A stretch of 64,000 nucleotides of DNA from the NCBI RefSeq assembly GCF_009192745.1, contig NZ_VTFV01000003.1, positions 186,001 to 250,000 on the forward strand. The letters are read 5' to 3'. The stretch is from Arthrobacter citreus (GTDB taxonomy: Bacteria > Actinomycetota > Actinomycetes > Actinomycetales > Micrococcaceae). The position numbers were made by a program, and so were the translations under genes. The notes under the pieces were generated by a model. That model saw only the letters and a list, made by a program, of their open reading frames with translations. It was not told the origin of the DNA and ran no database searches. Every line of letters starts with the position of its first letter. The stretch's first letter is position 1. Of this stretch, positions 41,912-57,599 are shown one piece after another.

Positions 41912-41962
41912 ATGTTGCACGGCTGAAACACGCCGTTCCCCGTTTGGGGCATGCTGCTGGCC

Positions 41963-41977
41963 TATAGTGGCTGCATG
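41963..41977 (+). promoter_or_regulatory. Possible leaderless promoter of the F420-dependent oxidoreductase gene
   Basis: TATAGT lies at 41963-41968, 6 bases before the ATG at 41975, and no ribosome site is visible. This is the spacing of leaderless actinobacterial transcripts. No convincing -35 element was found. Confidence 0.4.
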
Positions 41978-42979
41978 AAAACCCCGTTGCGGATTGGCTA
42001 TGCGGCCATGCTTGAGCAGTTCCACCCCAGTGAAGCGGTCGCGCTGTCTGCGTATGCGGAGGAACGTGGCTTCTCCGGCGTCATGGCGGCGGACCACTTC
42101 CAGCCGTGGGTTCCGGCGCAGGGCCAGTCGGCCTTCGTCTGGAACGTGCTCTCGGCGCTGGGGGAACGGACCAAGGGTGACATCGGTCCGGGCGTGACCG
42201 CCCCGACCTTCCGCTGGCACCCTGCCATGGTGGCGCAGGCCTCCGCGACGCTGGCTGCCATGTACCCGGGCCGGCACTGGCTGGGTCTGGGCTCCGGCGA
42301 GGCATTGAACGAGCACGTCACGGCCCAGTACTGGCCGGAAGCCCCGGAGCGGATCAACCGCATGTTCGAGGCCATCGAGATCATTTCCAAGCTCTTTGCC
42401 GCGTCCCTGGCCGGCAAGGATGTCCGCCACAGCGGCACGTTCTACAAGATGGAATCCACCCGGCTGTGGACCATGCCGGAGGTTGCTCCGGAAATCCTCG
42501 TTGCCACGGCCGGCCCCGTAACCGCCAAGCGCGCCGGCAGGCACGCCGACGGGCTCATCACCGTGGGCGCGCCGCTGGAGAAAATCGAAGGACTGTTCGC
42601 CCGGTTCGACGCCGGTGCCCGCGAGGCAGGCAAGGACCCGGACACGATGCCCAAGGTCCTGCAGCTGCATATGAGCTGGGCGCCGACCTACGAGGAAGCC
42701 CTGGCCAACGCCATGACTGAATGGCCCAACGGCGGGATGAAGTTCCCCAAGGCGGATATCCGCTCGCCCTTCGAACTGGAGCAGATGGCACGGCTGGTCC
42801 GGCCCGAGGATTTCGAGGGCAGGCTGCTGATCTCCGAGGACCCGGACGTGCACCGCGCCTACATCCAGAAATTCCTCGACCTCGGATTCGACCGCGTGTA
42901 TCTCCACAATGTGGGGCGCAACCAGCGCGAGTGGATCGACGTATTTGGCACCTCGGTGCTGCCGGAGCTGCACCGATGA
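41975..42979 (+). CDS. LLM-class F420-dependent oxidoreductase, glucose-6-phosphate dehydrogenase-like family
   Basis: A 334-residue luciferase-like TIM barrel. It resembles mycobacterial FGD1 throughout: DHFQPW with His41 and Trp45 matching FGD1 His40 and Trp44, and GSGEALNE with Glu109 in the same place as the catalytic Glu. The FGD1 loop with phosphate-binding Lys198 reads differently here (VGAPLEK), so the substrate may not be glucose 6-phosphate. It probably reduces or oxidises F420. Its stop overlaps the cofE start (ATGA), tying it to F420 metabolism. Confidence 0.88.
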
Positions 42980-43908
42980 CACTGGACCACCTCGTGCCCG
43001 AATCCTCCGCCGGAACCACCGCGCCAACCAGCCGGCTGGTCATCACGCCCCTACAGGGAATCGGTGAAGTCCGTTCCGGGGACGACCTGGCTGACCTCAT
43101 TGGACGGGCCTGCGGAAAGTACCTGCGCAGCGGAGACATCCTGGCAGTGACCTCCAAAGTGGTCTCCAAGGCGGAGGGCCGCACCATGCCTGCCTCTGCC
43201 CGTGACGCGGCGGTTGAGCAGGAGACGGTGCGCGTTGTTGCCAGCCGCGAACATCCCGGCGGCACCACCAGGATTGTTGAAAACCGCCTCGGCATCGTTG
43301 CGGCCGCGGCCGGAGTGGACTCCTCCAACACCGAGGACGGGACGGTGCTTCTGCTCCCGGAGGACCCGGATGCCTCAGCGCGTGCGATCTGCCGCCGGCT
43401 GAAGCAGGACTTTGGGGTGGACATCGGCGTCGTCATCACCGACACGCTGGGACGCCCTTGGCGGCAGGGACAGACCGACGCAGCGATCGGCGCGGCAGGG
43501 CTCACCGTCCTGCTGGACCTGCGCGGTACGCCGGACGCCTCCGGCCGGCCCATGGCCGCCACCGTTGCCGCGGTGGCCGATGAGATCGCTGCGGCGGCCG
43601 ACCTGGTCAAGGGCAAGACCGCCGGGATCCCGGTGGCACTGGTCCGCGGCCTGGACACACTGGTCACGGTGGGGGGCATGGACAAGGACCCGGGGGCGAA
43701 GGCACTGCTCCGTCCCGCGGCGGAGGACATGTTCCGGCGCGGCAGCGCGGAAGCATTCGAGGACGGGCGCCGGTCGGGCACCAAGACGGGTTACAACGCA
43801 GGGTACGACGACGGCCACGCGGCAGGTTACGAGGACGGTTACGCCGCCGGTTATGCGGCTGCCGCGGCCGAAGCGCGCCGCCGTGCACGCAGCATGGGCA
43901 GCCGCTGA
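42976..43908 (+). CDS. cofE: Coenzyme F420-0:L-glutamate ligase with a Gly-Tyr repeat tail
   Basis: A 310-residue enzyme that adds glutamate to F420-0. Family landmarks: [45 protein letters not shown], and [24 protein letters not shown]. The core ends near residue 250. It lacks the FbiB-type C-terminal nitroreductase domain. Instead a tail from about 265 contains spaced Gly-Tyr units ([22 protein letters not shown]) and ends in Arg-rich helix. It overlaps the F420-dependent oxidoreductase gene by 4 bases and converges with the F420-0 ABC cassette. Confidence 0.93.
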
Positions 43909-43935: not shown

Positions 43936-44745
43936 CTACCGGCCCAGCGCAATGAGCGGGCGGCCCGTCAGCGGATGCTGCAGCAGCTCGGCCCTGACAC
44001 CGTACACGCGGCGGATCAGTTCCGGCGTCAGCACGGACCCCACCGGGCCGGCGGCAACTACCGTGCCGCCGCTGAGCACGATCAGGTGTGAACACGCTGC
44101 CGCCGCATGGTTGATGTCGTGCAGCGCCGCGGCCACGGCCGTCCCGCCGGCGGCCAGGTTCTCCAGCAGTTCCAAAGTTTCAAGCTGGGCCGAGGCATCC
44201 AGATGGTTGGTGGGCTCATCCAGGAGCAGCACAGCCGGTTCCTGCGCCAGCGCCCGTGCCAGCTGCACCCGCTGTTGTTCGCCGCCGGACAGAGTTGAGT
44301 AGGTTCGCTCCGCGTGGCTAAGCACCCCTGCGGCTGCCAGGGACCGCTCCACCACGTCCAGGTCATGACGGCTTTCTCCGGCCAGCAGGCTGCGGTGCGG
44401 CGTGCGTCCCAGGGCCGTGACCTCGCGGACTGATTGGGACGTCTCGGCCGGCAGGGACTGTTCCACTAGCGCGATGCTCCGCGCCCGCTCCCGGGCGCGG
44501 GTCCTGGAAAGCGGCCGGTCCCGCAGCCTTACCGTTCCGTCGTCCGGGTCCAGGACGCCGGCCAGCAGATGAAGCAGTGTCGATTTCCCTGCACCGTTGG
44601 GACCAAGCAAGCCCGTAAAGGTGCCGGGCTCAAGGGTGCAGTCCACGCCGTCCACCAGCACCCGCCCGCTGCGGACTATCCGAACCCGCTCCGCTGACAG
44701 ACTGGGGCGGGCGTCCACAGCGGCACCCGGGACGCGGGCGCTCAT
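43936..44745 (-). CDS. ABC transporter ATP-binding protein, proposed F420-0 importer
   Basis: A 269-residue FecE/BtuD-type ATPase. Walker [10 protein letters not shown] (48-56), signature LSGGEQQRV (152-160), Walker [12 protein letters not shown] (173-183), and a switch His in ALHDINHAA. It overlaps the permease gene (ATGA). By sequence alone it would be called a siderophore or cobalamin importer subunit. The neighbourhood of cofE and F420-dependent genes matches the three-gene cassette proposed to import F420-0 in actinobacteria. Confidence 0.85.
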
Positions 44746-45800
44746 GCTCCGCTCCTGCGGCGGAGCAGCAGCAGGATGAAGAAGGGAGCCCCAATCAGGG
44801 CCGTCACGATTCCCACCGGAATCTCCCGGGGATCGAATACTGTCCGTGCCGCAGTGTCCGTCAGGACGAGGAACAGGGCTCCGGCCAGGGCGGACAGCGG
44901 CAGGAGTGAGCGGTGGGAAGCCCCCGCCAGCATCCGCACCGCATGTGGCAGGACCAGGCCTACGAACCCGATGGATCCGCTCACGGAGACCATGGCCCCG
45001 GTCAGGAGGGCGGTCGCCCCCAGCAGCGTCCAGCGGACAGCGGGCACCGGCACGCCAAGCGCGGAGGCGGCGGTGTCACCGAAGGAGAACGCGTCCAGGA
45101 GCCGCCCGCAGAACATCAGGGGAATACCGGCGACGGCGAGTACGGGAAGGGCGATCGCGGTGCTTGACCACGTAGCCCCGGCCAGGGACCCCATCAGCCA
45201 GCCGAGCACCTCACGGTAGGAATCTCCCTGGGCGGTCCAGAACACCACGAACGACGCCGCTGCTGCAGCCAGGGAGGACACCGCCAGTCCGGCAAGGACG
45301 GTACGCGTGGGCGTGATGGAGCCCAGCGCCCCAGCGAGTGCCAGTGTGGTTCCCATCGCCAGCATGGCTCCGGCGAACGCCGCAACGGGAAGCACGACGG
45401 CGGAGCCCAGCAGCAGCACGGTGACTGCCCCCAAGCTGGCACCGGAGCTCAGCCCCAGCAGGTACGGGTCTGCCAGCGGATTACGGGTGAGCGCCTGGAT
45501 CACCGCCCCGCTGAGAGCCAGGCCTGCGCCAACCGCCGCGGCCGTCAGGACCCGGGGGAGCCTCAGGTCCCGCACGATCGCCTCCTGCAGGGGTGTCAGC
45601 GACCCGCTGCCCGGCGCCGTCAGCGCCAGCCACGCCTCCCTTACCCCCAGACCGGCAGGTCCCACGGTCAGAGCCCAGAGCCCGGCGGCCAGCAGCCCCA
45701 GGCCAAGGACAGCACCGACAAACCAGGCGCGGCGGGAGCGCGGCTGCCGGGCGGGCCGTTCAACGGCGGGTGCGCCGGGACGGGCGATGGTGTCAGCCAA
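44742..45800 (-). CDS. FecCD-family ABC permease, proposed F420-0 importer
   Basis: A 352-residue permease with about ten membrane segments after a basic 25-residue start. Typical FecCD stretches: [48 protein letters not shown] and [16 protein letters not shown] near the coupling helix. The TTG at 45800 overlaps the end of the substrate-binding protein gene by 8 bases and gives the usual family start; no ATG or GTG suits better. Second gene of the three-gene cassette. Confidence 0.87.
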
Positions 45801-46815
45801 GGGCAGCCAGCTGCTCGGTGAGGGAACGTACGGTTTCCACGTTGCGTACCCCGGCTTCAGAGGCAGCAAATGGAACCACCAGGTAGCGGCCTTCCTGAAC
45901 TGCCCTGAGCTGGGAGATCACGGGGTGGGACTCCAGCACGGACTTCTTTTTCTCCACACTGCCCCAGGCCGAGTCGACCAGCACAATGACGTCCGGGTCC
46001 GCCTGGGCTACGGCTTCCCAGGAATACGGGCTCCAGCCCGCATCGATGCCGGCAGCGATGTTCTCCAGGCCCGCGGATTCCATCAGCAGCGCAGGTGCTC
46101 CGCTGCCGGCACCCACGAAAGGGGTGTCGGATCCGGAGCTGTACCAGAGTGCGCTGTAGCCCTTGCCATTCGGAGTGAGCGCCGCGAGCTCGGCCCGCTG
46201 TGCCTCAACCAGTTCCGATGCCGCTCCGGGTGCCCCGAACAGGTCTCCGGCTTCCTCGATAGAGGCGAAGACGTCGTCGAACGTCAGCGGGCTGGGCCGG
46301 TGTCCGTCCTCCATGCAGGCAGCGGGTGATACGTAGCTCGCTACGCCCAGTTCCCCGAGCTGGGCGCGTTCTCCGGCGCCGTCGGCGGAGAAGTTCGATT
46401 CCCAGCCGGCGAAAACCAGGTCCGGCGCGAGGCCCAGGACAGCCTCTTGGGAGGGCACCTTTTCGGCCAGGACCGGGGGAACCGGTGATCCTGCCCAGGC
46501 CTCGGGTACCGGGCCGTCGGCGAATGCGGTGCCCACGATCTTCCCCCCGAGGCCCAGGGCCAGGAGCAGCTCGGTAGAGGTGGACTTGATGGTCACCACG
46601 CGCTCCGGGGGAGCATCCAGGGAGACCGGTGTTCCGCAGTTATCCAGTTCCAGGGGGAACCCGGGTTCGAGGGTCCCTGACGCCTCTGTCTGAGGACGCT
46701 GGGCCTGCGCCGCATCCGGGGACGGGCCGGCGCAGCCGGTAAGCGCCAGTACGGTGAGTGCGGCCAACGCGGCAGGGCGCAGGAAACCGGGTGGGACATC
46801 AGACGGGGGAATCAT
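45793..46815 (-). CDS. ABC substrate-binding lipoprotein, proposed F420-0 binding
   Basis: A 340-residue BtuF/FhuD-like protein. The signal sequence ends LALTGC with lipidated Cys near 28. The domain starts PPERVVTIKSTSTELLLALGLGGKIVG, and the second lobe includes ALWYSSGSDTPFVGAGSGAPALLMESAGLENIA. The predicted ligand is F420-0, from cassette membership and cofE beside it; binding of another chelate-like compound cannot be excluded. A 339-base structured leader precedes it. Confidence 0.85.
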   Translation of the reverse strand: MIPPSDVPPGFLRPAALAALTVLALTGCAGPSPDAAQAQRPQTEASGTLEPGFPLELDNCGTPVSLDAPPERVVTIKSTSTELLLALGLGGKIVGTAFADGPVPEAWAGSPVPPVLAEKVPSQEAVLGLAPDLVFAGWESNFSADGAGERAQLGELGVASYVSPAACMEDGHRPSPLTFDDVFASIEEAGDLFGAPGAASELVEAQRAELAALTPNGKGYSALWYSSGSDTPFVGAGSGAPALLMESAGLENIAAGIDAGWSPYSWEAVAQADPDVIVLVDSAWGSVEKKKSVLESHPVISQLRAVQEGRYLVVPFAASEAGVRNVETVRSLTEQLAALG

Positions 46816-47154
46816 AAAACCTCGCAGGTGGAAGTGATCCGGGCGGTGGTTCCGCTGGGCTGCCGTGCCCGCGGAAGAGGTGCGGCTGGGCCCAAATCAA
46901 GGCCTGCTGTTCCCCGGCCAATCGGGCCGGTGATCGGTTGCCGCCTGCCGGGATGAAAGCGTACCGGCGGCGATTTCTACACTCTTGCAGAACTCGCCCG
47001 CGTAGCCAAGGATGGCGGGCACGGAGAACCGGGCTGCACCGCAGCTTTAATGCCTCCGAAACGCAGGAGAAATGTTTAGCCCAAAAGATGATGAAAAGCC
47101 CATGCGGCCTTTTTGCGAAACGGGCGGCTAAGCCGCCGGATTGTGGAGGATGTT
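46816..47154. promoter_or_regulatory. Divergent regulatory gap with several hairpins
   Basis: It separates the F420-0 cassette (minus) from the pyrimidine/hydantoin operon (plus). On the minus strand the leader could fold GCCCGC/GCGGGC, CCGCC/GGCGG and CCGGCC-CGATT-GGCCGG stems. It does not match cobalamin, TPP or ykoK riboswitch patterns that I know. Just before the nitrilase start lies a GGCGGCT/AGCCGCC palindrome (47124-47138). No open frame in the gap looks coding. Confidence 0.5.
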
Positions 47155-48003
47155 TTGACGATCGTTCGAACCGCACTGACGCAGACCACCTGGACCGGCG
47201 ATGAGGAGTCCATGGTTGCCAAGCATGAGGACTTTGTCCGCCGGGCAGCAGCGGAAGGCGCGCAGGTTATCTGTTTCCAGGAACTCTTCCACGGGCCGTA
47301 TTTCGGAATTGTCCAGGACAGCAAGTACTACGAATATGCCCAGGCCGTGCCGGGACCGCTGACGGAGCGGTTCTCCAAACTGGCAGCCGAGCACAACATG
47401 GTGATTATCCTTCCCGTCTACGAGGAAGAGCAGCCCGGCGTCTACTACAACACGGCTGCAGTAATCGACGCGGACGGAACGTACCTGGGTAAATACCGGA
47501 AGAACCATATTCCGCATGTGGAGAAGTTCTGGGAAAAGTTCTATTTCCGTCCGGGAAACCTTGGCTGGCCCGTTTTCGATACCGCGGTTGGAAAAGTCGG
47601 CGTCACCATCTGCTACGACCGGCATTTCCCAGAGGGCTGGCGGGTCCTGGGACTGAACGGCGCCCAGCTGGTCTTCAACCCCAACGCTTCCAAGCCCGGC
47701 CTTTCCAACCGGCTGTGGGAACTCGAGCAGCCGACTGCCGCTGCCGCCAACGGCTACTTCGTGGTGGTTCCCAACCGTGTGGGGGAAGAAACCAATGAAT
47801 TCGGCGAGGAGGCAGTGGACTTCTACGGCACCTCCTACATCGCCGACCCGCAGGGCAACTACGTCGGTGAGGTGGGCGCCCGGGACGGGGAGGAACTGAT
47901 GATCCGCGACCTCGATATGGAGCTGGTACGCACCGCAAGGAACAACTGGCAGTTCTACCGGGACCGCCGTCCGGATGCCTACGACCCCATCACCGCACCG
48001 TAA
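47155..48003 (+). CDS. Nitrilase-superfamily amidohydrolase, probable beta-ureidopropionase
   Basis: A 282-residue carbon-nitrogen hydrolase with the full catalytic set: Glu43 in CFQELFHG, Lys116 in KYRKNHIPH and Cys153 in ICYDRHFPEGW. HFPEGWRVLGLNGAQLVFNPNAS and similar stretches are those of N-carbamoyl-beta-alanine amidohydrolases. The expected reaction is N-carbamoyl-beta-amino acid to beta-amino acid, CO2 and ammonia, the last step of reductive pyrimidine breakdown. The TTG start at 47155 has GGAGGA 4 bases upstream; the frame upstream of it crosses the palindrome. First gene of a seven-gene operon. Confidence 0.9.
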   Translation: MTIVRTALTQTTWTGDEESMVAKHEDFVRRAAAEGAQVICFQELFHGPYFGIVQDSKYYEYAQAVPGPLTERFSKLAAEHNMVIILPVYEEEQPGVYYNTAAVIDADGTYLGKYRKNHIPHVEKFWEKFYFRPGNLGWPVFDTAVGKVGVTICYDRHFPEGWRVLGLNGAQLVFNPNASKPGLSNRLWELEQPTAAAANGYFVVVPNRVGEETNEFGEEAVDFYGTSYIADPQGNYVGEVGARDGEELMIRDLDMELVRTARNNWQFYRDRRPDAYDPITAP

Positions 48004-48039
48004 GCCCGGACAGCACAGAGGAAGGCAAGGAAACGCTTT

Positions 48040-49461
48040 ATGGCAACAACACTGATCTCCGGTGGCACCGTCGTCACCGCCACCGGCCGCAGCGCAGCGG
48101 ATGTCCTGGTGGACGGAGAGAAAATCGCCGCGGTCCTGGCACCCGGATCCACCCTGCTGGGACACGACCTTGCAGGTTCGGTGGACACTGTCCTGGACGC
48201 CACCGGCAAGTACGTGATTCCCGGCGGAATCGACGCGCACACCCATATGCAGATGCCCTTCGGCGGCACCGAAGCCTCCGACACCTTCGAAACCGGAACC
48301 CGTGCAGCAGCCTGGGGCGGAACCACCACCATTGTGGACTTCGCCATCCAGCGCTACGGCGAACGGGTCATGGACGGGCTTGCCGCCTGGCATGAGAAGG
48401 CCGCGGGGGAATGTGCCATCGACTACGGATTCCACCAGATCATCGGCGACGTCAATGACGACTCGCTGAAGGCGATGGAAACCCTCCCGGACGAAGGGGT
48501 CTCCAGCTACAAGCTCTTTATGGCCTACCCCGGGGTCTTCTACAGCGACGACGCGCAGATCTACAAGGCCATGCGGGTCGGAGCCGAGACCGGTCTGATG
48601 ACCATGATGCACGCCGAAAACGGTCCGGCGATCGACGCGATGGTCACCGAACTGCTCGCCCAGGGCAAAACCGACCCCTACTACCACGGCGTCGCACGCG
48701 CCTGGCAGATGGAAGAGGAAGCCACCCACCGGGCCATCATGCTCGCCAACCTCACCGGGGCGCCGCTCTACGTCGTCCATGTGTCAGCCAAGCCGGCCGT
48801 GGAACAGCTCGCGGCGGCACGGGACAACGGACAGAACGTCTTCGGCGAAACCTGCCCGCAGTACCTCTACCTCTCGCTCGAGGACCAGCTCGGTGCCGAA
48901 GGATTCGAGGGCGCCAAATGGGTCTGCTCCACACCGCTGCGGTCCAGGCACGAACACCACCAGGACCACATGTGGCAGTCGCTGCGCACCAACGACATCC
49001 AGATGGTCGCCACGGACCACTGCCCGTTCTGCATGAAGGGACAGAAGGACATGGGGGTGGGTGATTTCTCGAAGATTCCCAACGGCATCGGCTCGGTGGA
49101 ACACCGCATGGACCTGATGTACCAGGGCGTCGTGGACGGAAAAATCAGCCTGGAGCGCTGGGTGGAGATCACCAGCACGACGCCGGCGCGCATGTTTGGC
49201 ATGTATGGCACCAAGGGCGTGATCGCCCCGGGAGCAGACGCCGACGTCGTTATTTACGACCCGAACGGGCACACCTCGATCGGGCTGGAGAAGACCCACC
49301 ACATGAACATGGACTACTCGGCGTGGGAGGGCTACGAGATCGAAGGGCACGTGGACACGGTGATGTCCCGCGGCCGTGTGGTCGTCAACAACAACGAGTA
49401 CCTGGGCAGCAAGGGCCACGGGCAGTATGTCCGCCGCGCAACCAGCCAGTACCTGGTCTAG
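48040..49461 (+). CDS. hydA: Dihydropyrimidinase / D-hydantoinase
   Basis: A 473-residue cyclic amidohydrolase. Metal site: HTH at His67 and His69 in GGIDAHTHMQMPFGG, carbamylated Lys158 in SSYKLFMAYPG, His191 in MMHAENG, His in YVVHVSAK and Asp in ATDHCPF. It opens dihydrouracil, dihydrothymine or hydantoins to N-carbamoyl acids, feeding the nitrilase encoded upstream. The ATG at 48040 is 36 bases after the nitrilase stop. Confidence 0.95.
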   Translation: MATTLISGGTVVTATGRSAADVLVDGEKIAAVLAPGSTLLGHDLAGSVDTVLDATGKYVIPGGIDAHTHMQMPFGGTEASDTFETGTRAAAWGGTTTIVDFAIQRYGERVMDGLAAWHEKAAGECAIDYGFHQIIGDVNDDSLKAMETLPDEGVSSYKLFMAYPGVFYSDDAQIYKAMRVGAETGLMTMMHAENGPAIDAMVTELLAQGKTDPYYHGVARAWQMEEEATHRAIMLANLTGAPLYVVHVSAKPAVEQLAAARDNGQNVFGETCPQYLYLSLEDQLGAEGFEGAKWVCSTPLRSRHEHHQDHMWQSLRTNDIQMVATDHCPFCMKGQKDMGVGDFSKIPNGIGSVEHRMDLMYQGVVDGKISLERWVEITSTTPARMFGMYGTKGVIAPGADADVVIYDPNGHTSIGLEKTHHMNMDYSAWEGYEIEGHVDTVMSRGRVVVNNNEYLGSKGHGQYVRRATSQYLV

Positions 49462-49469
49462 GGGGAAAC

Positions 49470-50486
49470 ATGGAATTCGGTGCGGTACTGCAGTGCAATC
49501 CTCCCGCCCAGCGGACGGTGGCGCTTGCCAAGAAAGCGGAGGAACACGGGTTTGACTACGTGTGGACCTTCGATTCACACCTGCTCTGGCAGGAGCCATA
49601 CGTGATCTACAGCCAGATCCTGGCCGAAACCCGGTCCATCAAGGTGGGGCCGATGGTCACCAACCCCGCCACCCGGGACTGGACCGTGACGGCGTCGACC
49701 TACGCCACGCTGAACCAGATGTACGGCAACCGGACCGTCTGCGGGATCGGCAGGGGAGACTCCGCGGTGCGGGTCACCAACGGGGCTCCCACCACGCTGA
49801 AGACGCTTCGCCAGGCAATCCATGTGATCCGGGAACTGGCCAACTCCCGGCCGGTTGAATACAACGGCGCCACCCTGCAGTTCCCGTGGAGCAAGGGCTC
49901 GGAACTGGAGGTCTGGGTGGCGGCCTACGGTCCGCTGGCACTGAAGCTCACCGGGGAGGTGGGGGATGGGTTCATCCTCCAGCTGGCGGACGTGGACATT
50001 GCCGAGTGGATGATTCGTACTGTCCGGCAGGCCGCGGCCGACGCCGGCCGGGACCCGGACAGCATCGAATTCTGCGTCGCAGCGCCGATGTACATCGGCA
50101 CCAACCGGGAACACATGCGCAACCAGTGCCGCTGGTTCGGCGGCATGGTGGGCAACCACGTGGCGGATATCGTGTCCAAATACGGGTCCGATTCCTCCGT
50201 GCCGCAGGCGCTGACCGACTACATTGCAGGGCGCCAGGGCTACGACTACAACGAGCACGGCCGTGCCGGGAACACCCATGCCGACTTTGTGCCGGATGAA
50301 ATCGTGGACCGGTTCTGCATCCTGGGCACCGCCGAAGAGCACATGGAAAAGCTCGAAAAGCTCAAAGCCCTCGGCGTCACGCAGTTTGCCGGTTACCTCC
50401 AGCACGACAACAAGGAGGAAACCCTGCGCGTCTACGGGGAGACGGTGATCCCTGCCCTGCGGGACCAGGTGGCTGCGAAGGCATGA
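49470..50486 (+). CDS. LLM-class flavin/F420-dependent oxidoreductase of the pyrimidine/hydantoin operon
   Basis: A 338-residue luciferase-like barrel starting MEFGAVLQCNPPAQRTVALAK, unlike the FGD-like protein 7 kb away. VWTFDSHLLWQEPYVIYSQILAETRSIKVGPMVTNPATRDWTVTAS and GIGRGDSAVR are the substrate and cofactor strands. Close relatives are regularly encoded beside hydantoinases. Cofactor (F420 or FMN) and substrate are unknown. In this operon it sits where a dihydropyrimidine dehydrogenase would be needed. It starts 8 bases after hydA, and its stop overlaps the next gene (ATGA). Confidence 0.85.
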   Translation: MEFGAVLQCNPPAQRTVALAKKAEEHGFDYVWTFDSHLLWQEPYVIYSQILAETRSIKVGPMVTNPATRDWTVTASTYATLNQMYGNRTVCGIGRGDSAVRVTNGAPTTLKTLRQAIHVIRELANSRPVEYNGATLQFPWSKGSELEVWVAAYGPLALKLTGEVGDGFILQLADVDIAEWMIRTVRQAAADAGRDPDSIEFCVAAPMYIGTNREHMRNQCRWFGGMVGNHVADIVSKYGSDSSVPQALTDYIAGRQGYDYNEHGRAGNTHADFVPDEIVDRFCILGTAEEHMEKLEKLKALGVTQFAGYLQHDNKEETLRVYGETVIPALRDQVAAKA

Positions 50487-51373
50487 AAACGGAAGTACGA
50501 CGGCGGTGGCGCCCCTCCGCGATCGCGTGGGGGATTGGCGGGGTGCTGCTGCCGGTCCTTCTCTGGGAGGGGTACAAAGCTGTTGGCCCGGCGTCCGGGG
50601 TTAGCGTCGGCGGCATGCCGCTGCTGCCCCGGACCACGGACCTGGCCATGCCCCATTCCTGGACCATGCTTGAGCGGCTCCTGGCACCTGAATCCTCGGC
50701 CTCGGGCGCCGGACCCATGTGGGTGGCCGTGCTGCAGGCGGCCGGTTTTACCCTCGGCATCGCCGGTGCCGGCTGGCTGCTGGGCGTTGTGGTGGGGCTC
50801 GGGCTTGCCATGCTGATGCAGCGCTTCCGCAGCGCCAACTCGGCGATGCTGCCCTGGATCATCCTGAGCCAGACCGTGCCGCTGATCGCGATCGCTCCGC
50901 TGGTCCGCCGGTGGGGGTCACAGCTCGAGTTTGGCCCGTTCACGTGGGAGAACTGGATGTCCGTGGCCGTCATCTCCGCTTACCTGGCGTTCTTTCCGGT
51001 GGCCATTGGTGCGCTGCGCGGCTTCAACGCCCCGGAGAAGGCACACGAGGACCTCATGCGCACCTATGCCCTTGGCTGGTGGCAGACCTTCCTGCGGCTC
51101 AGGCTCCCGGCGAGCGTGCCGTACCTGCTCCCTGCACTGCGGCTCGCGGCCGCCAACGCGGTGATCGGGGCAGTGGTGGCGGAGGTTTCAATCGGGCTCC
51201 GCGGCGGTATTGGCCGCATGATCGTCGAATTCGCCGCCGCCGCGGGAGGTGACCCGGGCAAGCCCTGGGCGCCAATCTTCGGCGCCGTGGTGCTGGGCCT
51301 GGCCGCGGTGGGATTCGTTGCTTTGATCGGCGCACTGCTGCGCCGCTACCGCAGAGGAGAGCAGGCAGCATGA
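50483..51373 (+). CDS. ABC transporter permease, pyrimidine/hydantoin operon (first)
   Basis: A 296-residue SsuC/ThiX-type permease with six membrane segments. The EAA loop lies in APEKAHEDLMRTYALGWWQTFLRLRLPASVPYLLPAL. Overlaps of 4 bases on both sides (ATGA) show one translated unit with the oxidoreductase and ATPase genes. With a second permease two genes on, the importer is probably a heterodimer in the membrane. Confidence 0.9.
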   Translation: MKTEVRRRWRPSAIAWGIGGVLLPVLLWEGYKAVGPASGVSVGGMPLLPRTTDLAMPHSWTMLERLLAPESSASGAGPMWVAVLQAAGFTLGIAGAGWLLGVVVGLGLAMLMQRFRSANSAMLPWIILSQTVPLIAIAPLVRRWGSQLEFGPFTWENWMSVAVISAYLAFFPVAIGALRGFNAPEKAHEDLMRTYALGWWQTFLRLRLPASVPYLLPALRLAAANAVIGAVVAEVSIGLRGGIGRMIVEFAAAAGGDPGKPWAPIFGAVVLGLAAVGFVALIGALLRRYRRGEQAA

Positions 51374-52230
51374 ACAGCACTACGGATTCAATGGGCGGGA
51401 CGGCGACGGCGGACGGGGGAGCGGTTCCGGTCCCCGCGGTTCACGCGGTCTCTGTTGGCCGCATCTTTGGCGCCGGACGCAGCCCGGTGCAGGCACTGCG
51501 GGACGTCAGCCTGAGCGTAGCTGCCGGTGAGTTTGTCTCCCTGATCGGTCCCTCCGGCTGTGGCAAAAGCACCCTGATGAGGCTGATCGCGGATCTGGAT
51601 GCACCCAGTTCCGGAACGCTGAGCGTGTTCGGCAAGAGTGCGCGGCAGGCCCGGCTGGACCAGGATTACGGCATCGCTTTCCAGCAGGCAGGGCTGCTGC
51701 CCTGGCGGACCGTGCGCGGCAACATTGAGCTGCCTCTGCAGACCCACGGCGCCGCCCCGGCAGCCCGCCGGGCGCGCTCGGATGAACTGCTGGAGATGGT
51801 AGGCCTCTCCGACTTCGGCGAGCACTACCCGGACCAGCTCTCCGGCGGTATGCAGCAGAGGGTGGCCATCGCACGGTCGCTGGCTGAGTCACCCAAGCTG
51901 CTGCTGATGGATGAGCCTTTCGGAGCCCTGGATGAGATGACGCGGGAAAAGATGCAGAACGAACTGGTCCGCATCTGCGCGGAGACGGGCTGCGCCGTCG
52001 TTTTTGTCACCCATTCAATTCCGGAGGCCGTGTTCCTCTCTGACCGGGTGGTGGTGATGTCTCCACGGCCGGGTGAAATCCGGGAGATCGTGGACATCAC
52101 GCTGGGCTCAGCCGGCGCCCGCGGTGCGGGACTTCGCGAGGAGGCTTCTTTTTACGAGGCGATCCGGACAGTGCGTGAGGCGCTGCACGGGGCCGAACCT
52201 GCTGCGGTCCGGGGAGCGGAAACCCGATGA
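51370..52230 (+). CDS. ABC transporter ATP-binding protein, pyrimidine/hydantoin operon
   Basis: A 286-residue SsuB/TauB-type ATPase. Walker A GPSGCGKST (60-68), Q-loop FQQAGLLPWRTV, signature LSGGMQQRV (157-165), Walker B LLLMDEPFGALDE (177-189), switch His in VTHSIPEAVFLSDRV. Four-base overlaps link it to the permease genes on either side. It powers import of the substrate bound by the lipoprotein at the end of the operon. Confidence 0.93.
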   Translation: MNSTTDSMGGTATADGGAVPVPAVHAVSVGRIFGAGRSPVQALRDVSLSVAAGEFVSLIGPSGCGKSTLMRLIADLDAPSSGTLSVFGKSARQARLDQDYGIAFQQAGLLPWRTVRGNIELPLQTHGAAPAARRARSDELLEMVGLSDFGEHYPDQLSGGMQQRVAIARSLAESPKLLLMDEPFGALDEMTREKMQNELVRICAETGCAVVFVTHSIPEAVFLSDRVVVMSPRPGEIREIVDITLGSAGARGAGLREEASFYEAIRTVREALHGAEPAAVRGAETR

Positions 52231-53078
52231 GCGGGATCGTCCAGGACCCGCCGGCCGCACCGGCAGCGGGTGCGCCGGCGGAAACTCGTGGAACAGCCGG
52301 CATCGATCCCGGCCGTCTGTCCGGGCTTGGCAGCCACCTCGCTGCGCCGCTGCTGCTGGGGGCAGCGGCACTCCTGCTGTGGCAGGGCGCGGTTTGGGTG
52401 CTGCAGATTGAGCCGTTCATCGTCCCGGGGCCGCTGGCAATCGCCGAAGCCTTCGCCGGCAACCTGGCGAACGTGCTGGGTGCCGCCGTCGTCACCGGGG
52501 TGAACGCCGCCGTCGGGCTGGTGACTGGAGCGCTGCTGGGAGTTGCTGCCGCTGTGGCGGCCGCAGCCGTCCCTGCCCTGGACCGGCTGGCGGCACCGCT
52601 GGTGGTGGCGCTCTCCGTCATTCCGATCGTGGCGCTGGCTCCGGTGCTCTACACAATGTTCGGTGCCGATCAGCAGGCCACCCGGCAGATCGTGGCGGGA
52701 ATCGCCGTCTTCATTCCCGTCTACGTCAACTCGCTGCGCGGATTCCGGCAGGTGAAGCCGGTGCACCGGGACCTGATGCGCTCGTACGCCGCTGGCAAGT
52801 GGCAGATCACCCGCAGCGTCACCCTGCCCAGCGCAGTGCCGTACATGTTCACCGGCCTGCGGATTGCGTCCTCACTGGCCGTCGTCTCGGCGCTGATTGC
52901 CGAGTACTTCGGCGGGCCGGTAGGCGGCCTCGGCAAGTCGGTGACGTCCGCGGCTTCGAGCAGCAACTACACGCTGGCCTGGGCCTACGTGCTTGGTGCC
53001 GTGCTGCTGGGGCTGCTGTTCTACGCGGTCACCGCCGCGCTGGAGAAGTACTTTTCCCGGCATTCCGGCGGGTCCTGA
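52227..53078 (+). CDS. ABC transporter permease, pyrimidine/hydantoin operon (second)
   Basis: A 283-residue permease with about six membrane segments and an Ala/Pro-rich cytoplasmic start. The EAA loop is in VKPVHRDLMRSYAAGKWQITRSVTLPSAVPYMFTGLRIA. It resembles the first permease but is clearly distinct. ATGA overlap with the ATPase gene; 73 bases to the substrate-binding protein. Confidence 0.9.
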   Translation: MSGIVQDPPAAPAAGAPAETRGTAGIDPGRLSGLGSHLAAPLLLGAAALLLWQGAVWVLQIEPFIVPGPLAIAEAFAGNLANVLGAAVVTGVNAAVGLVTGALLGVAAAVAAAAVPALDRLAAPLVVALSVIPIVALAPVLYTMFGADQQATRQIVAGIAVFIPVYVNSLRGFRQVKPVHRDLMRSYAAGKWQITRSVTLPSAVPYMFTGLRIASSLAVVSALIAEYFGGPVGGLGKSVTSAASSSNYTLAWAYVLGAVLLGLLFYAVTAALEKYFSRHSGGS

Positions 53079-53151
53079 GTCCGGCGCCGCTCCATAGATG
53101 TTCCACCCGCACCACTCCGTCCGCACTAATCGCCCGTATGAGGGGAAGCAC

Positions 53152-54294
53152 ATGAACACACGAAGGAAACCGCTCACAATCCTGGCCTCCGGACTGGCCG
53201 TCACCGCCCTGGCGCTGGCAGGCTGCGGCGGGGAATCCGGGGACGGCCCGGCCGCCGCCGATGAACTTACCCCGGTGAAGCTGCAGCTGCAGTGGTTCGC
53301 GCAGGCCCAGTTCGCCGGCTACTACGCGGCACTGGACCAGGGCTTCTTCGAGGAGGAGGGCCTCGACGTCGAAATCCTGGAAGGCGGTGCCGATATTGTG
53401 CCGCAGGATGTCCTGGCCTCCGGCGACGCTGACTACGCCATCTCCTGGGTTCCCAAGGTCCTCGGCTCGATCGAGCAGGGCGCTGCCATCACCAACGTGG
53501 CGCAGATCTTCGAACGAAGCGCCACCCTGCAGGTCGCCATGGCGGACTCGGGCATTGACGGTCCCGAAGACCTCGCCGGCAAGAAGGTTGGCTCCTGGGG
53601 CTACGGCAATGAGTGGGAGCTGTTTGCCGGTATGCAGCAGGCCGGCGTGGAGATCGATGACATTGAACTGATCCAGCAGGCCTTCGACATGAACGGCTTC
53701 CTCGCCGGGGACATCGACGCCGCGCAGGCCATGACCTACAACGAATACGCGCAGGTCCTGGAGACGGAGAACCCGAACACGGGCGAGCTCTACCAGCCGG
53801 AGGACCTCACCGTCATCGACTGGAACGAAGAGGGCACCGCGATGCTTCAGGACGCCATTTGGGCGGACACACAGCGGCTCGAGGATGACGAGGAGTACCA
53901 GGAAACCACGGTTGCCTTCATCAAGGCCGCCATCAAAGGCTGGGCGTATGCGAAGGACAACCCTGAGGAAGCGGCGGAGATCGTGACCGGGGCCGGGTCC
54001 ACGCTGGGCACGAGCCACCAGCTGTGGATGACCAATGAAACGTCCAAGCTGATCTGGCCGTCCACGAACGGCGTTGGCCTGATCGATGAGGCTGCGTGGG
54101 AACAGACGGTTGAGATCGCGCTGGGCACCAAGAACGAAACTGGTGCAACGATCATCAGTGAGGAGCCGCCGGCCACGGCCTGGACCAACGAGTACGTGGA
54201 GAAGGCATTGGCGGAGCTGGAGGAAGAAGGCGTAGACACCAAGGGTGCGGACTTTGCGCCCATTGAGGTTGAGCTTCAGCCCGGAGGGAACTGA
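53152..54294 (+). CDS. NMT1/THI5-like ABC substrate-binding lipoprotein
   Basis: A 380-residue exported protein. The signal ends ALALAGC with lipidated Cys near residue 24. The domain begins VKLQLQWFAQAQFAGYYAALDQGFFEEEGLDVEI, the standard NMT1/THI5 start of pyrimidine-precursor, riboflavin or hydantoin binding proteins. FDMNGFLAGDIDAAQAMTYNEYAQVL is the hinge and ligand region. Its place at the end of a dihydropyrimidinase operon points to a pyrimidine, hydantoin or ureido ligand. ATG 53152 follows AGGGGAAG; the earlier in-frame start adds 18 His-rich residues and is rejected. Confidence 0.93.
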   Translation: MNTRRKPLTILASGLAVTALALAGCGGESGDGPAAADELTPVKLQLQWFAQAQFAGYYAALDQGFFEEEGLDVEILEGGADIVPQDVLASGDADYAISWVPKVLGSIEQGAAITNVAQIFERSATLQVAMADSGIDGPEDLAGKKVGSWGYGNEWELFAGMQQAGVEIDDIELIQQAFDMNGFLAGDIDAAQAMTYNEYAQVLETENPNTGELYQPEDLTVIDWNEEGTAMLQDAIWADTQRLEDDEEYQETTVAFIKAAIKGWAYAKDNPEEAAEIVTGAGSTLGTSHQLWMTNETSKLIWPSTNGVGLIDEAAWEQTVEIALGTKNETGATIISEEPPATAWTNEYVEKALAELEEEGVDTKGADFAPIEVELQPGGN

Positions 54295-54315
54295 CCCGGT
54301 TTGAACCCGTGCCGG

Positions 54316-54400
54316 CCTGGCCGGCGCATCGCTGGTTCGGCTTCTTGTCCGCCCGCCGGGCGGCCGGGGCTGATGGTGGTGTGCCGGCCAGGCGTCTTTT
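54316..54400 (+). terminator. Terminator of the pyrimidine/hydantoin operon
   Basis: CCTGGCCGGCGCA (54316-54328) can pair with TGTGCCGGCCAGG (54380-54392), 13 bp with one G-U pair, followed by CGTCTTTT. The long loop carries its own CCGCCC/GGGCGG hairpin, giving a branched structure. It starts 21 bases after the operon's last stop. Confidence 0.7.
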
Positions 54401-54617
54401 CGTTGGAGTCCAGCCGGGGTAGTTGCCGGTCAAAAAGCTGTAGCGTTTGGGCTACCCTCACCGCGAATCAATGCGGGCGGGGTATATGCGACTCGGGAGT
54501 CCTGGGAGCGATCGGGGTGGCGCAGTCGGATTCTTCGAGGGAGTGCCGCTGCGGTTAGGGACCGGCTTACGGGCATGAGTCATGGGGCGCTGCGGCTCGC
54601 CGAGTACGCTTTAGTCC
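54401..54617. other. Rest of the gap before the GNAT gene
   Basis: With the terminator this makes a 323-base gap. It holds a GTAGC/GCTAC mini-hairpin and a decayed copy of palindromic repeat A. No frame looks coding. From here on base composition and gene density change, marking the start of the accessory stretch. Confidence 0.45.
54544..54575 (+). repeat. Palindromic repeat A, degenerate copy 1
   Basis: TGCCG ... CGGGCA arms around TTAGGGACCGGCTTA, which follows the repeat A centre AAGGATCGGCTT with several changes. It lies in the gap before the GNAT gene. Confidence 0.4.
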
Positions 54618-55073
54618 ATGCAGATTCGTGAAGCCACCCTGGATGACCTGGAACATGTGGCTGCGGTTTGTGATGCCGGCGGTCGACCACGCTGGACCAG
54701 CGCAATGATCGTCCCCAGAGACCAACGAGTCGTGTTGGTGGCTGTCATGCAGGGCGCAGTTGTCGGGGTGGCCAAGACCCATCACTACCCGGGTCCCGAA
54801 GACAACGCGCCAGCAGGCCACTATCTCGGTGGAGTGGAAGTCGCTCCGGAGTTCCGTCGGCGAGGAATTGGTTCTGAACTCACCCGGGTGAGATTGGAAT
54901 TGATCTGGGCATGGGCCTCAGCCGCTTACTACTTCACGAACGAACACAACACGGCGTCCATCCGGATGCACGAGACGCACGCGTTCCGGCCCGTCGCCCG
55001 ACTCCGGGAGATCCGAGGAGTAACCGCGGACGACGGCCGGTCTGAGCTTATTCTGTTCGAGGCGTCCCGATAA
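54618..55073 (+). CDS. GNAT-family N-acetyltransferase
   Basis: A 151-residue single-domain acetyltransferase. MQIREATLDDLEHVAAVCD is the usual first strand and helix. LGGVEVAPEFRRRGIGSELTRVRLELIWAWA is the acetyl-CoA site with R-R-x-G-x-G. YYFTNEHNTASIRMHETHAFRPVARLREI is the last part, the common N-x-x-S-I-R-x-Y/H pattern. Substrate is unknown. It stands alone. Confidence 0.93.
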   Translation: MQIREATLDDLEHVAAVCDAGGRPRWTSAMIVPRDQRVVLVAVMQGAVVGVAKTHHYPGPEDNAPAGHYLGGVEVAPEFRRRGIGSELTRVRLELIWAWASAAYYFTNEHNTASIRMHETHAFRPVARLREIRGVTADDGRSELILFEASR

Positions 55074-55138
55074 ACGATCCCCTGTGGGCTATTGATGTTA
55101 ACCCCGTGGTTTGTAGTTTGCATGTCGCTACGGACCTG

Positions 55139-55369
55139 CTACGGACGAACTCGGAAACCCAAAACTGATCGATTGCGGCCGCTTGCTTCGCTATCCCATG
55201 GACCACGGGTGGACAGTGCTACGAGAGCAAGTCCGAGCAGTACAAACCAGATGTACCCCCACGAGGCCGCCGTCGCGATTCGGAGAATTCCAGCCATAGC
55301 AACGAAACTGCCGGTGGAGAAGAGGAAGCGTGTCATTTTCCAGCTGAACATTCCGTGTTTGGCTCGCAT
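55139..55369 (-). CDS. Small membrane protein, hypothetical
   Basis: A 76-residue frame with two hydrophobic segments (about 13-33 and 36-53: FLFSTGSFVAMAGILRIATA, WGYIWFVLLGLALVAL) and a basic tail. This hydropathy is hard to get by chance from a shadow frame, but no family is recognised and no ribosome site stands out. Starts at residues 7 or 12 are also possible. The opposite-strand frame at the same place looks non-coding. Confidence 0.5.
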   Translation of the reverse strand: MRAKHGMFSWKMTRFLFSTGSFVAMAGILRIATAASWGYIWFVLLGLALVALSTRGPWDSEASGRNRSVLGFRVRP

Positions 55370-55460
55370 CCGTCAACAGTACGTGAGCGGATTTTTCAAC
55401 GCAGTCCACCCTCGTGGCCCGCGCCTAATTGCAGACTGCCTCGGGTTAGGGTGACTCACT

Positions 55461-55497
55461 CTCCCGTTCAGCATTCCGCTTGCGGATCACTGAACGG
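55461..55497 (+). repeat. Palindromic repeat A, divergent copy 2
   Basis: CCCGTTCAG ... CTGAACGG arms enclose CATTCCGCTTGCGGATCA. It keeps the CCCGTTCA beginning and the GCTTGCGG end of the family but has a different centre. Confidence 0.45.
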
Positions 55498-55526
55498 AAG
55501 TCGCCTCGGCGTGCTGCCCATGCCGA

Positions 55527-55559
55527 GCGTCGCGGTGAAGGATCCCTAAATGGAACGTC
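55527..55559 (+). repeat. Palindromic repeat B, copy 1
   Basis: It begins GCGTCGCGGTGAAGGATCCC, and its right arm is decayed (TGGAACGTC). It follows a CTGCCCATGCC flank that also occurs near repeat A copy 5. Confidence 0.55.
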
Positions 55560-55707
55560 TCTCCATGCGTTGGCTGCGATCGTCGCATTCAACTCGGCAT
55601 TGCGCGCGAATAGTCCCTCTTGAGGTTCCCGTGCAAAGAGAGCCGCCCTACGTCTTCGAAAAATCTCTGAAGAGAATTCCTGATGCCCACAGAGCTAAGA
55701 TTTCAGG

Positions 55708-56328
55708 ATGAACAAGGGGAGCACAGGTCTGGAAGAGTCAGGCTCGGCCACTCGCGCGTGCGCTTTCATCCCGTCAACGCATCGTGGCCTACCGATGCTG
55801 CGCCTATTCCTTCCTTTTCGAGACCCCTCTCTCGATGAGAGCGAAAACATTGTGCGATGGTCCCGATACGTCTCCCTAGAAGATCATTCTGCTTCGCTGG
55901 ATTGGTTTGAAGCGACCGCGGAGATAGCCGAGGACGAACCGTCCATTCGCGGACTCGTCTCCTGCATGGGCGAGCTGGATGAGGAAACTGCGACCGCCCT
56001 TCGGGATGCGATTGGCACTGTCAAGCTGCAATGCCTCCGGTGGATGGGCTACGCGGAAGCACCACGGACCAATTCGCCAAGGCGAGTATTCGGGGAGGAA
56101 TACTTCGAGGCACACCTCAGTCCTGACGATGTGACGGCCGGACGAAGGGTCCCGGAGTTCGCGTGGGATGCCGACCAGCGTTTTGCATGGGGTGGCAGGC
56201 TGTACCCGGACTCTTTGATTGTGGCCGCCGAGCCATCCATCTTTCGGCAACTGATGAATGACTCCCGCGTCGACACTGTGTCGGTGAGGGCAGATCGAGA
56301 TTTGCTGCCCTGGAGCGCCGGCGACTGA
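55708..56328 (+). CDS. Hypothetical protein
   Basis: A 206-residue soluble acidic protein that I do not recognise. The first 30 residues are low-information; a later start at the ATG encoding MLRLFLPF (residue 30) is possible. The sequence from LRLFLPFRDPSLDESENIVRWSRYV to the end has normal coding character, with a conserved-looking FAWDADQRFAWGGRLYPD. It stands alone between repeat copies, and its GC is lower than that of core genes. Confidence 0.65.
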   Translation: MNKGSTGLEESGSATRACAFIPSTHRGLPMLRLFLPFRDPSLDESENIVRWSRYVSLEDHSASLDWFEATAEIAEDEPSIRGLVSCMGELDEETATALRDAIGTVKLQCLRWMGYAEAPRTNSPRRVFGEEYFEAHLSPDDVTAGRRVPEFAWDADQRFAWGGRLYPDSLIVAAEPSIFRQLMNDSRVDTVSVRADRDLLPWSAGD

Positions 56329-56361
56329 CCTCTCGGCCGCTACCGGGTCTAATGGACACGG

Positions 56362-56393
56362 ATGTCCCAGTGGAGGATCCTTCACCGCGATGC
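56362..56393 (-). repeat. Palindromic repeat B, copy 2 (inverted)
   Basis: Read on the minus strand it starts GCATCGCGGTGAAGGATCC and ends CACTGGGACAT, giving an imperfect stem around the AAGGATCC centre. It lies between the hypothetical gene and the broken gene. Confidence 0.55.
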
Positions 56394-56421
56394 CAACCGG
56401 TGTCAGTGACATGATGAAGTG

Positions 56422-57021
56422 GTGACGTTCCTTCCCTGCAGTGACCAGACGCCCGCGGATTGGATCGCGACTAGCGACGTCAATTGGTGGAGCGTGGTCA
56501 CGCTGGGCCCTCCAGGGTTCGGCACCTAGGCACGACTGCGGTTCATCCCAGATCCGGCCTATGAAGGCCAGACTGAAAACGAAGTTGCCGGCATGTACAA
56601 CGTCCCGTCAGATACTGACCAACTTCGTCTCGCGGTCAAGACGTTACTCCAGCACGCCAGTCCGATCGTCGATGGGTATGTGCTTCTGTGGGACGGATGG
56701 GGTGAGGATGCGTTTCCGGAAGCCGTGCTGCGTACGCCCCGCGTGGTGCTCCCGAACCGTGAGTACTACCTGTGCAAGGTCTCGCTGGCAGGTTTTGTCT
56801 CAGGGATCGTTGAAAACGCCTGGCATGCGGAAACGAATCACCCCATGCCCCTTCCGTCCTTTATATGGCCCTCGGACCAGACCTGGTGCATCACCAAAGA
56901 TGTCGATCCCCATTGGGCCGGCATCGGCGGTGATCAGGATCTAATGGAGCAACTACTGGCCGAACATAGTCTCGACGTTGTTCCCCTCGAGACGAACGAG
57001 ATTCTGCCCTTTTACTCGTAG
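56422..57021 (+). pseudogene. Hypothetical protein gene interrupted by one amber codon
   Basis: The GTG frame at 56422 encodes MTFLPCSDQTPADWIATSDV and on through GPPGFGT, then TAG at 56527-56529. It continues in the same frame as ARLRFIPDPAYEGQTENEV and on for 163 more codons to the stop at 57019-57021. Sense codons on both sides read as one protein of about 199 residues, and similar actinobacterial proteins have Tyr at the broken place. TAC or TAT to TAG would explain it. A 142-residue product from the internal ATG at 56593 is possible. WCITKDVDPHWAGIG is the best-conserved-looking part. Function is unknown. Confidence 0.75.
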
Positions 57022-57079
57022 TGGAAAGAACCGATCCGCCGGTGACCGGGTAGTCCAGGAGGGCTGAAGCGGGGCCCGA

Positions 57080-57487: not shown

Positions 57488-57507
57488 GTGATAGCTCTGT
57501 GACGGAG

Positions 57508-57536: not shown

Positions 57537-57599
57537 GTGACTATCCCGGGCTCGGTCAGGACCAGTAATGGATGTTAGCGTCCTCGAGGAGGACACAGG

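Follow-up and report, generated by a model that had tools for sequence, protein, structure and literature searches.

A luciferase-like oxidoreductase of family TIGR03842 as the predicted F420H2-dependent dihydropyrimidine dehydrogenase of a pyrimidine catabolic operon in Arthrobacter citreus

This study concerns a seven-gene operon in a 64,000-nucleotide stretch of Arthrobacter citreus DNA (contig NZ_VTFV01000003.1 of assembly GCF_009192745.1, forward-strand positions 186,001 to 250,000; the whole stretch is referred to below as the window), the third gene of which encodes an oxidoreductase of the luciferase-like monooxygenase (LLM) class belonging to family TIGR03842, hereafter simply the LLM. 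We propose, with a probability of about 0.75, that the operon encodes a reductive pyrimidine catabolic (Pyd) pathway in which the LLM would act as an F420H2-dependent dihydropyrimidine dehydrogenase, fed in this host by imported F420-0. The LLM is not homologous to the classical dihydropyrimidine dehydrogenase (DPD), the place of which it has probably taken, as judged from gene content and gene order. A preliminary description of the window had suggested that an LLM enzyme stands where DPD is expected, allowing either F420 or FMN as cofactor and either pyrimidines or hydantoins as substrate; the evidence assembled here favours F420 and pyrimidines.

The operon was confirmed at positions 47155-54294 of the window, with all genes on the plus strand and intergenic distances, in gene order, of 36, 8, -4, -4, -4 and 19 bases, the last four of which bear out the earlier statement that the genes are co-directional with ATGA overlaps or short gaps in the latter part. 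Its members are as follows:

47155..48003, plus strand: carbon-nitrogen hydrolase, probable beta-ureidopropionase (PF00795, 228 bits)
48040..49461, plus strand: HydA, dihydropyrimidinase (TIGR02033, 550 bits, above the cut-off of 393)
49470..50486, plus strand: TIGR03842 LLM oxidoreductase, proposed F420H2-dependent dihydropyrimidine dehydrogenase (597 bits, above the cut-off of 295.45)
50483..51373, plus strand: ATP-binding cassette (ABC) permease (PF00528; ATGA overlap with the LLM gene)
51370..52230, plus strand: ABC ATPase, nitrate/sulfonate type (PF00005)
52227..53078, plus strand: ABC permease (PF00528)
53098..54294 (likelier start 53152), plus strand: NMT1/THI5-type binding lipoprotein, probable pyrimidine binder (PF09084, 132 bits)

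In the proposed pathway, uracil or thymine would be brought in by the NMT1-type ABC importer, the LLM would reduce the C5=C6 bond with a hydride supplied by F420H2 to give dihydrouracil or dihydrothymine, HydA, the family of which is established, would open the ring, and the nitrilase-type amidase, likewise of established family but with a presumed substrate, would release beta-alanine or beta-aminoisobutyrate together with CO2 and ammonia. A divergently oriented cassette would provide the cofactor, its ABC importer taking up F420-0 and CofE adding the glutamate tail, while a second LLM-class protein (LLM2) or another enzyme would reduce the F420. The classical reaction is driven by NADPH and F420H2 is at least as reducing, which makes the F420H2 chemistry feasible.

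The host genome (G000; 3.55 Mb in 13 contigs, 100% complete) contains exactly one protein of family PF01180 (DHO_dh), which lies outside the window and is a quinone-dependent PyrD (TIGR01036, 398 bits, cut-off 200), and it gives no match to PreA at E 1e-60. Since the sole DHO_dh protein is PyrD, the host is considered to have no PreA or DPD; the preliminary description had seen no PreT/PreA-like genes in the window, and the genome-wide check for PreA/DPD was likewise negative. Among 246 sampled Actinomycetota genomes, 53 have the LLM and 2 have PreA, without any overlap. Dihydropyrimidinase, found in 75 of the 246, occurs in 50 of 53 LLM-positive versus 25 of 193 LLM-negative genomes (Fisher 1.5e-29), and cofE, found in 139, in 50 of 53 versus 89 of 193 (Fisher 1.7e-11); the sampled genomes are related and not independent, so that these p-values overstate independence, which tells against the proposal. 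In genome G208, also of the Actinomycetota, hydA adjoins PreA and no LLM is found. Dihydropyrimidinase is present with neither TIGR03842 nor PreA in 24 genomes of this sample.

It could be envisaged that the linkage is real and that the LLM performs an accessory step, such as reduction of a side-product, uracil itself being reduced by an unrecognised enzyme encoded elsewhere. This is biochemically conceivable and agrees with the three LLM-positive genomes in which hydA was not detected, but no DHO_dh candidate is left in the host to fill such a role and the LLM represents the sole redox-enzyme family among the seven operon genes, and we therefore rate an accessory role as very improbable.

Outside the Actinomycetota, PreA is encountered in the position which the LLM occupies here. 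On a Deinococcus actinosclerus plasmid, an annotated dihydropyrimidine dehydrogenase occupies the PreT position, after which come preA, a small gene, hydA, an ABC ATPase, two permeases, an NMT1-type binding protein, a Zn-hydrolase, a PucR regulator, an aminotransferase and mmsA, while a Deinococcus psychrotolerans plasmid carries preA, hydA and the homologous importer, then a Zn-hydrolase and a cytidine deaminase. Roseinatronobacter carries preA together with genes for a TetR regulator, a Zn-hydrolase, HydA and the importer, and a Sinorhizobium meliloti stretch comprises genes for an annotated RutR, a Zn-hydrolase, HydA and the importer, none in that stretch encoding a first-step enzyme. The binding proteins of the Deinococcus, Roseinatronobacter and Sinorhizobium loci are 31-36% identical to that of the window. 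From the Deinococcus and Roseinatronobacter gene orders it follows that importer and hydA accompany PreA in some lineages and TIGR03842 in others. The absence of PreA from the host genome, together with its occupation of the corresponding position, next to hydA and a homologous importer, in Deinococcus, supports the earlier suggestion that the LLM replaces DPD.

The gene neighbourhood of the LLM was compared in two sets of loci, namely the best 80 of 512 relatives (the named loci) and 53 loci representing 52 additional genomes of the phylum sample, the counts for the latter covering the fetched stretches only; clustering of open reading frames employed a codon-position filter on guanine-plus-cytosine (GC) content against antisense frames. 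The LLM proteins of the nearest named loci (Arthrobacter luteolus, A. koreensis, A. gandavensis and Arthrobacter sp. Edens01) are 97-99% identical to that of the window. A hydA match was obtained in all 80 named loci at 200 bits and in 78 at 300 bits; at L027 and L062 the locus begins directly with the match. The amidase is present in 76 of the 80 and nitrilase, hydA and LLM are colinear in 76, because of which the operon arrangement cannot be put down to chance. Named loci also carry a class III aminotransferase (60/80), MmsA (23/80), an ABC binding protein (55/80) or the F420-0 importer (36/80), and a gene for F420 import or synthesis, FGD-like proteins excluded, was found in 60 of the 80, including 53 of the 63 with full flanks. 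A fusion of hydA and LLM, hinted at by long open frames, was rejected, as the reading frames differ wherever both genes were found close together.

Among the 53 phylum-sample loci, 38 have hydA close to the LLM, 48 carry an amidase or M20 carbamoylase nearby and 40 an NMT1-type ABC transporter or NCS1 carrier, and neither PreA nor PreT was found near the LLM in any of them. Locus L125 (genome G045) is a genuine exception in that hydA lies approximately 50 kb away on the same contig. An NCS1 carrier, sought with three queries, was detected in one of the 80 named loci and in 25 of the 53 phylum-sample loci; at L095 the gene immediately before the LLM encodes a nucleobase carrier (PF02133, 398 bits), and at L014 (A. 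wenxiniae) a nucleobase carrier precedes the amidase, with a PucR regulator farther upstream. At L051 and L074, binding-protein matches directly follow the LLM, but those to the permease and ATPase are incomplete or absent; the transporter genes at these two loci are possibly decaying.

The LLM is physically connected with F420 genes in the Alphaproteobacteria, where on plasmids of Leisingera and Paracoccus the LLM is the last gene of a cofG-cofH-cofD-cofC-cofE-npdG-LLM operon, the Paracoccus alcaliphilus and L. caerulea proteins scoring 503 and 506 bits, respectively, above the TIGR03842 cut-off. In P. alcaliphilus (L145, L148) the cofGHDCE-npdG-TIGR03842 operon is complete and is followed by an ABC importer. 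The divergent operon of Leisingera encodes PntA, PntB, an omega-aminotransferase (AptA, 750 bits, cut-off 500), a hydantoinase/carbamoylase-type amidase (TIGR01879, 401 bits, cut-off 204), HydA and an NCS1 symporter (PF02133, 366 bits). Adjoining the LLM is a RutR-family regulator, the score of which (198 bits, tested in L. aquaemixtae) falls short of the equivalog cut-off of 368. On the strength of its gene content, the Leisingera island can be read as providing for the supply of NADPH, the synthesis of F420 and its reduction by NADPH, then for reduction and opening of the ring, removal of the carbamoyl group and transamination.

The LLM protein itself belongs to an NCBIfam hypothetical equivalog, a family without an assigned function; its only domain match is PF00296 and no Fe-S domain match was obtained. 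The nearest named family is Mer, at 150 bits and well below the Mer cut-off of 348.7, and the best solved relatives are also F420-dependent Mer proteins (131 bits). In a midpoint-rooted tree of 52 LLM sequences, an alphaproteobacterial pair is separated with full support from the actinobacterial group. Residues invariant in all 52 include W32, D35, S36, W40, N65, R69, R95, Y153, Q171, W222, N229, R255, Y258, D259, Y260 and H263. An operon LLM from a metagenome-assembled genome labelled Acidobacteria (L036) is 83% identical to that of the window, at a locus which resembles those of Microbacteriaceae; this genome is probably mislabelled or misbinned.

The LLM superfamily includes many FMN monooxygenases, among them RutA, which opens uracil, and it could be argued that the LLM is such a flavin enzyme, for instance a RutA-like monooxygenase, and that the F420 genes are near it by coincidence, an argument favoured by the lack of F420 import or synthesis genes near the LLM at all 53 phylum-sample loci. 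RutA (TIGR03612, cut-off 498 bits) is, however, not in the best 25 of the 27 families matched by the LLM, the 25th of which scores 24.6 bits, whereas the F420-dependent Mer is the nearest named family and supplies the nearest solved structures; moreover, in another phylum the LLM gene is the final gene of F420 biosynthesis operons, cofE accompanies the LLM in 50 of 53 genomes, and the products of RutA need no HydA. A flavin-dependent LLM is on these grounds considered improbable. Of the two cofactors which the preliminary description had allowed, F420 is thus preferred, as the LLM ends cofGHDCE-npdG operons, F420 genes are present at 60 of 80 named loci (but at none of the 53 phylum-sample loci) and a true F420-dependent glucose-6-phosphate dehydrogenase (FGD) is encoded beside the LLM in a relative of the host (G310, described below).

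With respect to the substrate, the family assignments of the neighbouring enzymes permit some latitude. TIGR02033, like the solved relatives of HydA, spans D-hydantoinases and dihydropyrimidinases. The nitrilase gene, which starts with a TTG codon preceded by GGAGGA, encodes a protein that reaches no NCBIfam cut-off (TIGR03381, 254 bits, cut-off 410), its best solved relatives being 2vhh, which we take to be Drosophila beta-alanine synthase (193 bits), an N-carbamoylputrescine amidohydrolase (184 bits) and a beta-ureidopropionase (176 bits). The best solved relative of the binding protein (3ix1, an N-formyl-aminomethylpyrimidine-binding protein, 71 bits) binds a breakdown product of the thiamine pyrimidine and not uracil, the carrier at L014 scores alike on NCS1 and allantoin permease models and below both cut-offs, and NCS1 carriers also transport hydantoin and allantoin. 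These observations would suit an F420-dependent reductase of another heterocycle, be it a hydantoin or a modified, methylated or thiamine-type pyrimidine, the product of which is processed by HydA and the amidase. Against this stand the annotated PreA that fills the slot beside the same transporter type in Deinococcus, the RutR-family regulator adjoining the Leisingera LLM, and AptA and MmsA, which fit beta-alanine and beta-aminoisobutyrate, and we regard a different heterocycle as unlikely, if less so than a flavin enzyme. Uracil and thymine are consequently retained as the proposed substrates, the choice of pyrimidines over the hydantoins also allowed in the preliminary description being supported by the NCS1 carriers, RutR-family regulator, omega-aminotransferase and MmsA linked to the LLM elsewhere.

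Cofactor supply in the host is attributed to the cassette upstream of the operon, the coordinates of which confirm that the two diverge across 339 bases, as had been described previously:

41951..42979, plus strand: LLM2, FGD-like LLM oxidoreductase, candidate F420-reducing enzyme (TIGR03557, 269 bits, above the cut-off of 210)
42976..43908, plus strand: CofE, F420-0:L-glutamate ligase (TIGR01916, 231 bits, above the cut-off of 181)
43936..44745, minus strand: putative F420-0 importer, ATPase (best match TIGR03873, 337 bits, below the cut-off of 372)
44742..45869, minus strand: putative F420-0 importer, permease (TIGR03869, 455 bits, above the cut-off of 437)
45793..46815, minus strand: putative F420-0 importer, binding lipoprotein (TIGR03868, 435 bits, above the cut-off of 392)
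46816..47154, no strand: divergent control region of 339 bases between the importer binding-protein gene and the nitrilase gene

The likely cofE start is the ATG at 42976, which overlaps the LLM2 stop codon, and the start codon of the importer permease is uncertain, with a 77-base overlap with the next gene. A consensus scan of the 339-base region revealed no sigma-70-like promoter. Importer and amidase were found diverging in 34 named loci, and in 20 of these the hit-to-hit gap is less than 1 kb. On other models LLM2 scores below the cut-offs (TIGR03885 'flavin_revert', 303 bits, cut-off 399; TIGR03554 FGD, 204 bits, cut-off 420). A gene like LLM2 is present at more than 350 bits in 14 of the 80 named loci and at approximately 400 bits in four of the 53 phylum-sample loci (L090, L095, L116 and L129; family f18, far from Arthrobacter), and it may be a conserved partner of the LLM. 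That LLM2 is a simple replacement for FGD was rejected, as both occur in L021, L042 and L048. The C-terminal tail of CofE comprises approximately 50 residues, is repetitive and rich in Gly and Tyr, and weakly matches FliH models.

In the host genome, neither cofH (threshold E 1e-40) nor cofD (threshold E 1e-30) was matched, which implies dependence on F420 made by others, and the importer follows the LLM among its relatives. Of 90 genomes sampled from the host's family, seven contain TIGR03842, and the F420-0 binding protein exceeds its cut-off in six, all of which are LLM-positive (Fisher 1.1e-8) and each of which has the importer at most 3 kb from the LLM; two more genomes of the family have sub-threshold binding-protein matches. 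The seventh LLM-positive genome, G310, the LLM of which clusters with that of the window in the 52-sequence tree, has cofH (286 bits, below the model cut-off of 374) approximately 5 kb and cofD approximately 7.5 kb from the LLM, while G329, one of the six importer genomes, also has cofH and cofD. All seven therefore possess the importer or both cofH and cofD, and with six carrying the importer and the seventh the synthesis genes, the pairing of importer and LLM constitutes a family-level pattern, in that F420 is either imported or made where the LLM is present. The earlier notion of scavenged F420 accordingly gains support from the host's lack of cofH and cofD matches and from an importer that tracks the LLM. 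In G310, the gene for a true FGD (TIGR03554, 610 bits, cut-off 420) separates the LLM from the ABC genes, and genes for F420 synthesis are adjacent. At this locus (L155, 7760-8848 and 12666-18284), a flavin monooxygenase-like gene was also observed among the F420 synthesis genes, besides the FGD gene between LLM and transporter.

Just past the operon, the GC content falls to 0.59-0.61 (window positions 54000-64000) from 0.64-0.70 before it, in a stretch where a GNAT acetyltransferase, an ArsR-type regulator and an MFS carrier are encoded and a kinase-like protein is weakly matched; it is possible that this stretch is an acquired island.

Several observations weigh against the proposed role of the LLM. 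The importer, cofC, cofD, cofE and cofGH gave no match in the fetched stretches of any of the 53 phylum-sample loci, so that over most of the phylum the link with F420 consists of co-occurrence only, and the idea that F420 genes are generally linked to the LLM throughout the phylum was rejected. The preliminary description had asked how often the LLM subfamily sits beside hydA and the F420-0 cassette; hydA and importer were found near it in 80/80 and 36/80 of the named loci and in 38/53 and 0/53 of the phylum-sample loci, respectively. Our confidence in F420-dependent pyrimidine reduction is unchanged by the latter count because the genome-wide co-occurrence stands; cofE is nevertheless also common in genomes without the LLM (89/193). 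There are LLM-positive genomes without a hydA match (G149, G216, G234) or without a cofE match (G119, G160, G173), four of these six being less than 90% complete, and among the phylum-sample loci 15 are without hydA and 13 without either transporter type, some of them at contig ends. The stretch fetched from the P. alcaliphilus plasmid (161-225 kb) carries no annotated hydA. The operon genes in the window include no aminotransferase or MmsA, for neither of which the host genome was searched. No NpdG exceeds its cut-off in the host genome (64 versus 149.8 bits), and NpdG was rejected as the F420 reductase there; LLM2, which exceeds the cut-off of the FGD subfamily model but scores higher, if below cut-off, on the flavin model, is an ambiguous candidate for the source of F420H2. 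One protein of the F420H2-type family PF04075, encoded on contig 10 (114525-116692) near another LLM gene, may be a second user of F420 besides the pyrimidine step, which weakens the idea that F420 serves only the pyrimidine pathway in this host. The NCBIfam names 'F420-dependent' and 'F420-0 importer' are themselves hypothetical, and both the enzymatic role of the LLM and its binding of F420 are predictions from genome evidence. Finally, in vitro assays of the mureidomycin reductase compared below are reported to have failed (PMC10714638).

A broader proposition can be formulated, for which we consider the balance to be even: F420 would be vitamin-like in these bacteria, those that do not make it importing F420-0 by a dedicated ABC system which is kept by one catabolic operon, since an F420H2 enzyme unrelated to DPD starts pyrimidine breakdown, and this enzyme would be the usual dihydropyrimidine dehydrogenase of the Actinomycetota. 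If the role proposed for the LLM is correct, a function would be assigned to a hypothetical family present in 53 of 246 sampled Actinomycetota genomes, pyrimidine reduction would be explained in a phylum nearly devoid of PreA (2/246), and F420 would acquire a catabolic role in pyrimidine use. F420 salvage would moreover become testable, as growth of the host on uracil nitrogen should depend on outside F420, an expectation that derives from the absence of cofD and cofH matches from its genome. An F420-dependent uracil reductase might also bear on the breakdown of 5-fluorouracil by environmental bacteria.

The LLM operon can be compared with several known systems. With PreTA, DPD and PydA it shares the proposed reaction and the place in the operon, as seen from PreA beside hydA and a homologous ABC importer on the two Deinococcus plasmids, and it differs in that DPD is an FMN/Fe-S enzyme of the DHO_dh fold whereas the LLM is a single-domain PF00296 protein with probably another cofactor. 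Mer (F420-dependent methylenetetrahydromethanopterin reductase) provides the nearest named family and solved structures, but the LLM falls far below the Mer cut-off and the gene context differs. The RutA pathway likewise starts uracil use with an LLM-class enzyme, and is, in contrast, oxidative, FMN-dependent and without HydA.

In the literature, a full-text search retrieved, among the titles and abstracts listed, none on an F420-dependent dihydropyrimidine dehydrogenase, an absence that is weak as most subscription journals and preprints lie outside its coverage; two papers mention both F420 and dihydropyrimidine dehydrogenase (PMC9045290, PMC8097209), and in the text examined of a 2021 review of F420 the words 'uracil', 'hydantoin', 'uptake' and 'auxotroph' do not occur (PMC8498797). 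A functional parallel, likened here by description, is the putative F420/FMN oxidoreductase NpsU / SSGG-03002, which reduces the uracil C5=C6 bond in mureidomycin in vivo, as concluded from gene disruption and nuclear magnetic resonance, although in antibiotic biosynthesis (PMC10714638). In uric acid clusters of Chloroflexota, a luciferase-family F420 'yanthine reductase' has been proposed from gene context in place of the PF01180 protein UacX or YgfK (PMC12507026); by description it too is a luciferase-family protein standing in for a DHO_dh-type reductase in a ring reduction, but in a purine pathway of another phylum, and it is also unproven. The Pyd pathway is described with NADPH, NADH and ferredoxin variants, and the ferredoxin-dependent PydAc of Clostridium chromiireducens resembles the present case in that the pathway differs solely in what donates electrons to the first step, yet PydAc is still a PydA homologue, which the LLM is not (PMC7332683). 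Taken together, the gene content and gene order described here indicate that the LLM operon is probably a variant of the known Pyd pathway in which the work of DPD is performed with a different cofactor.

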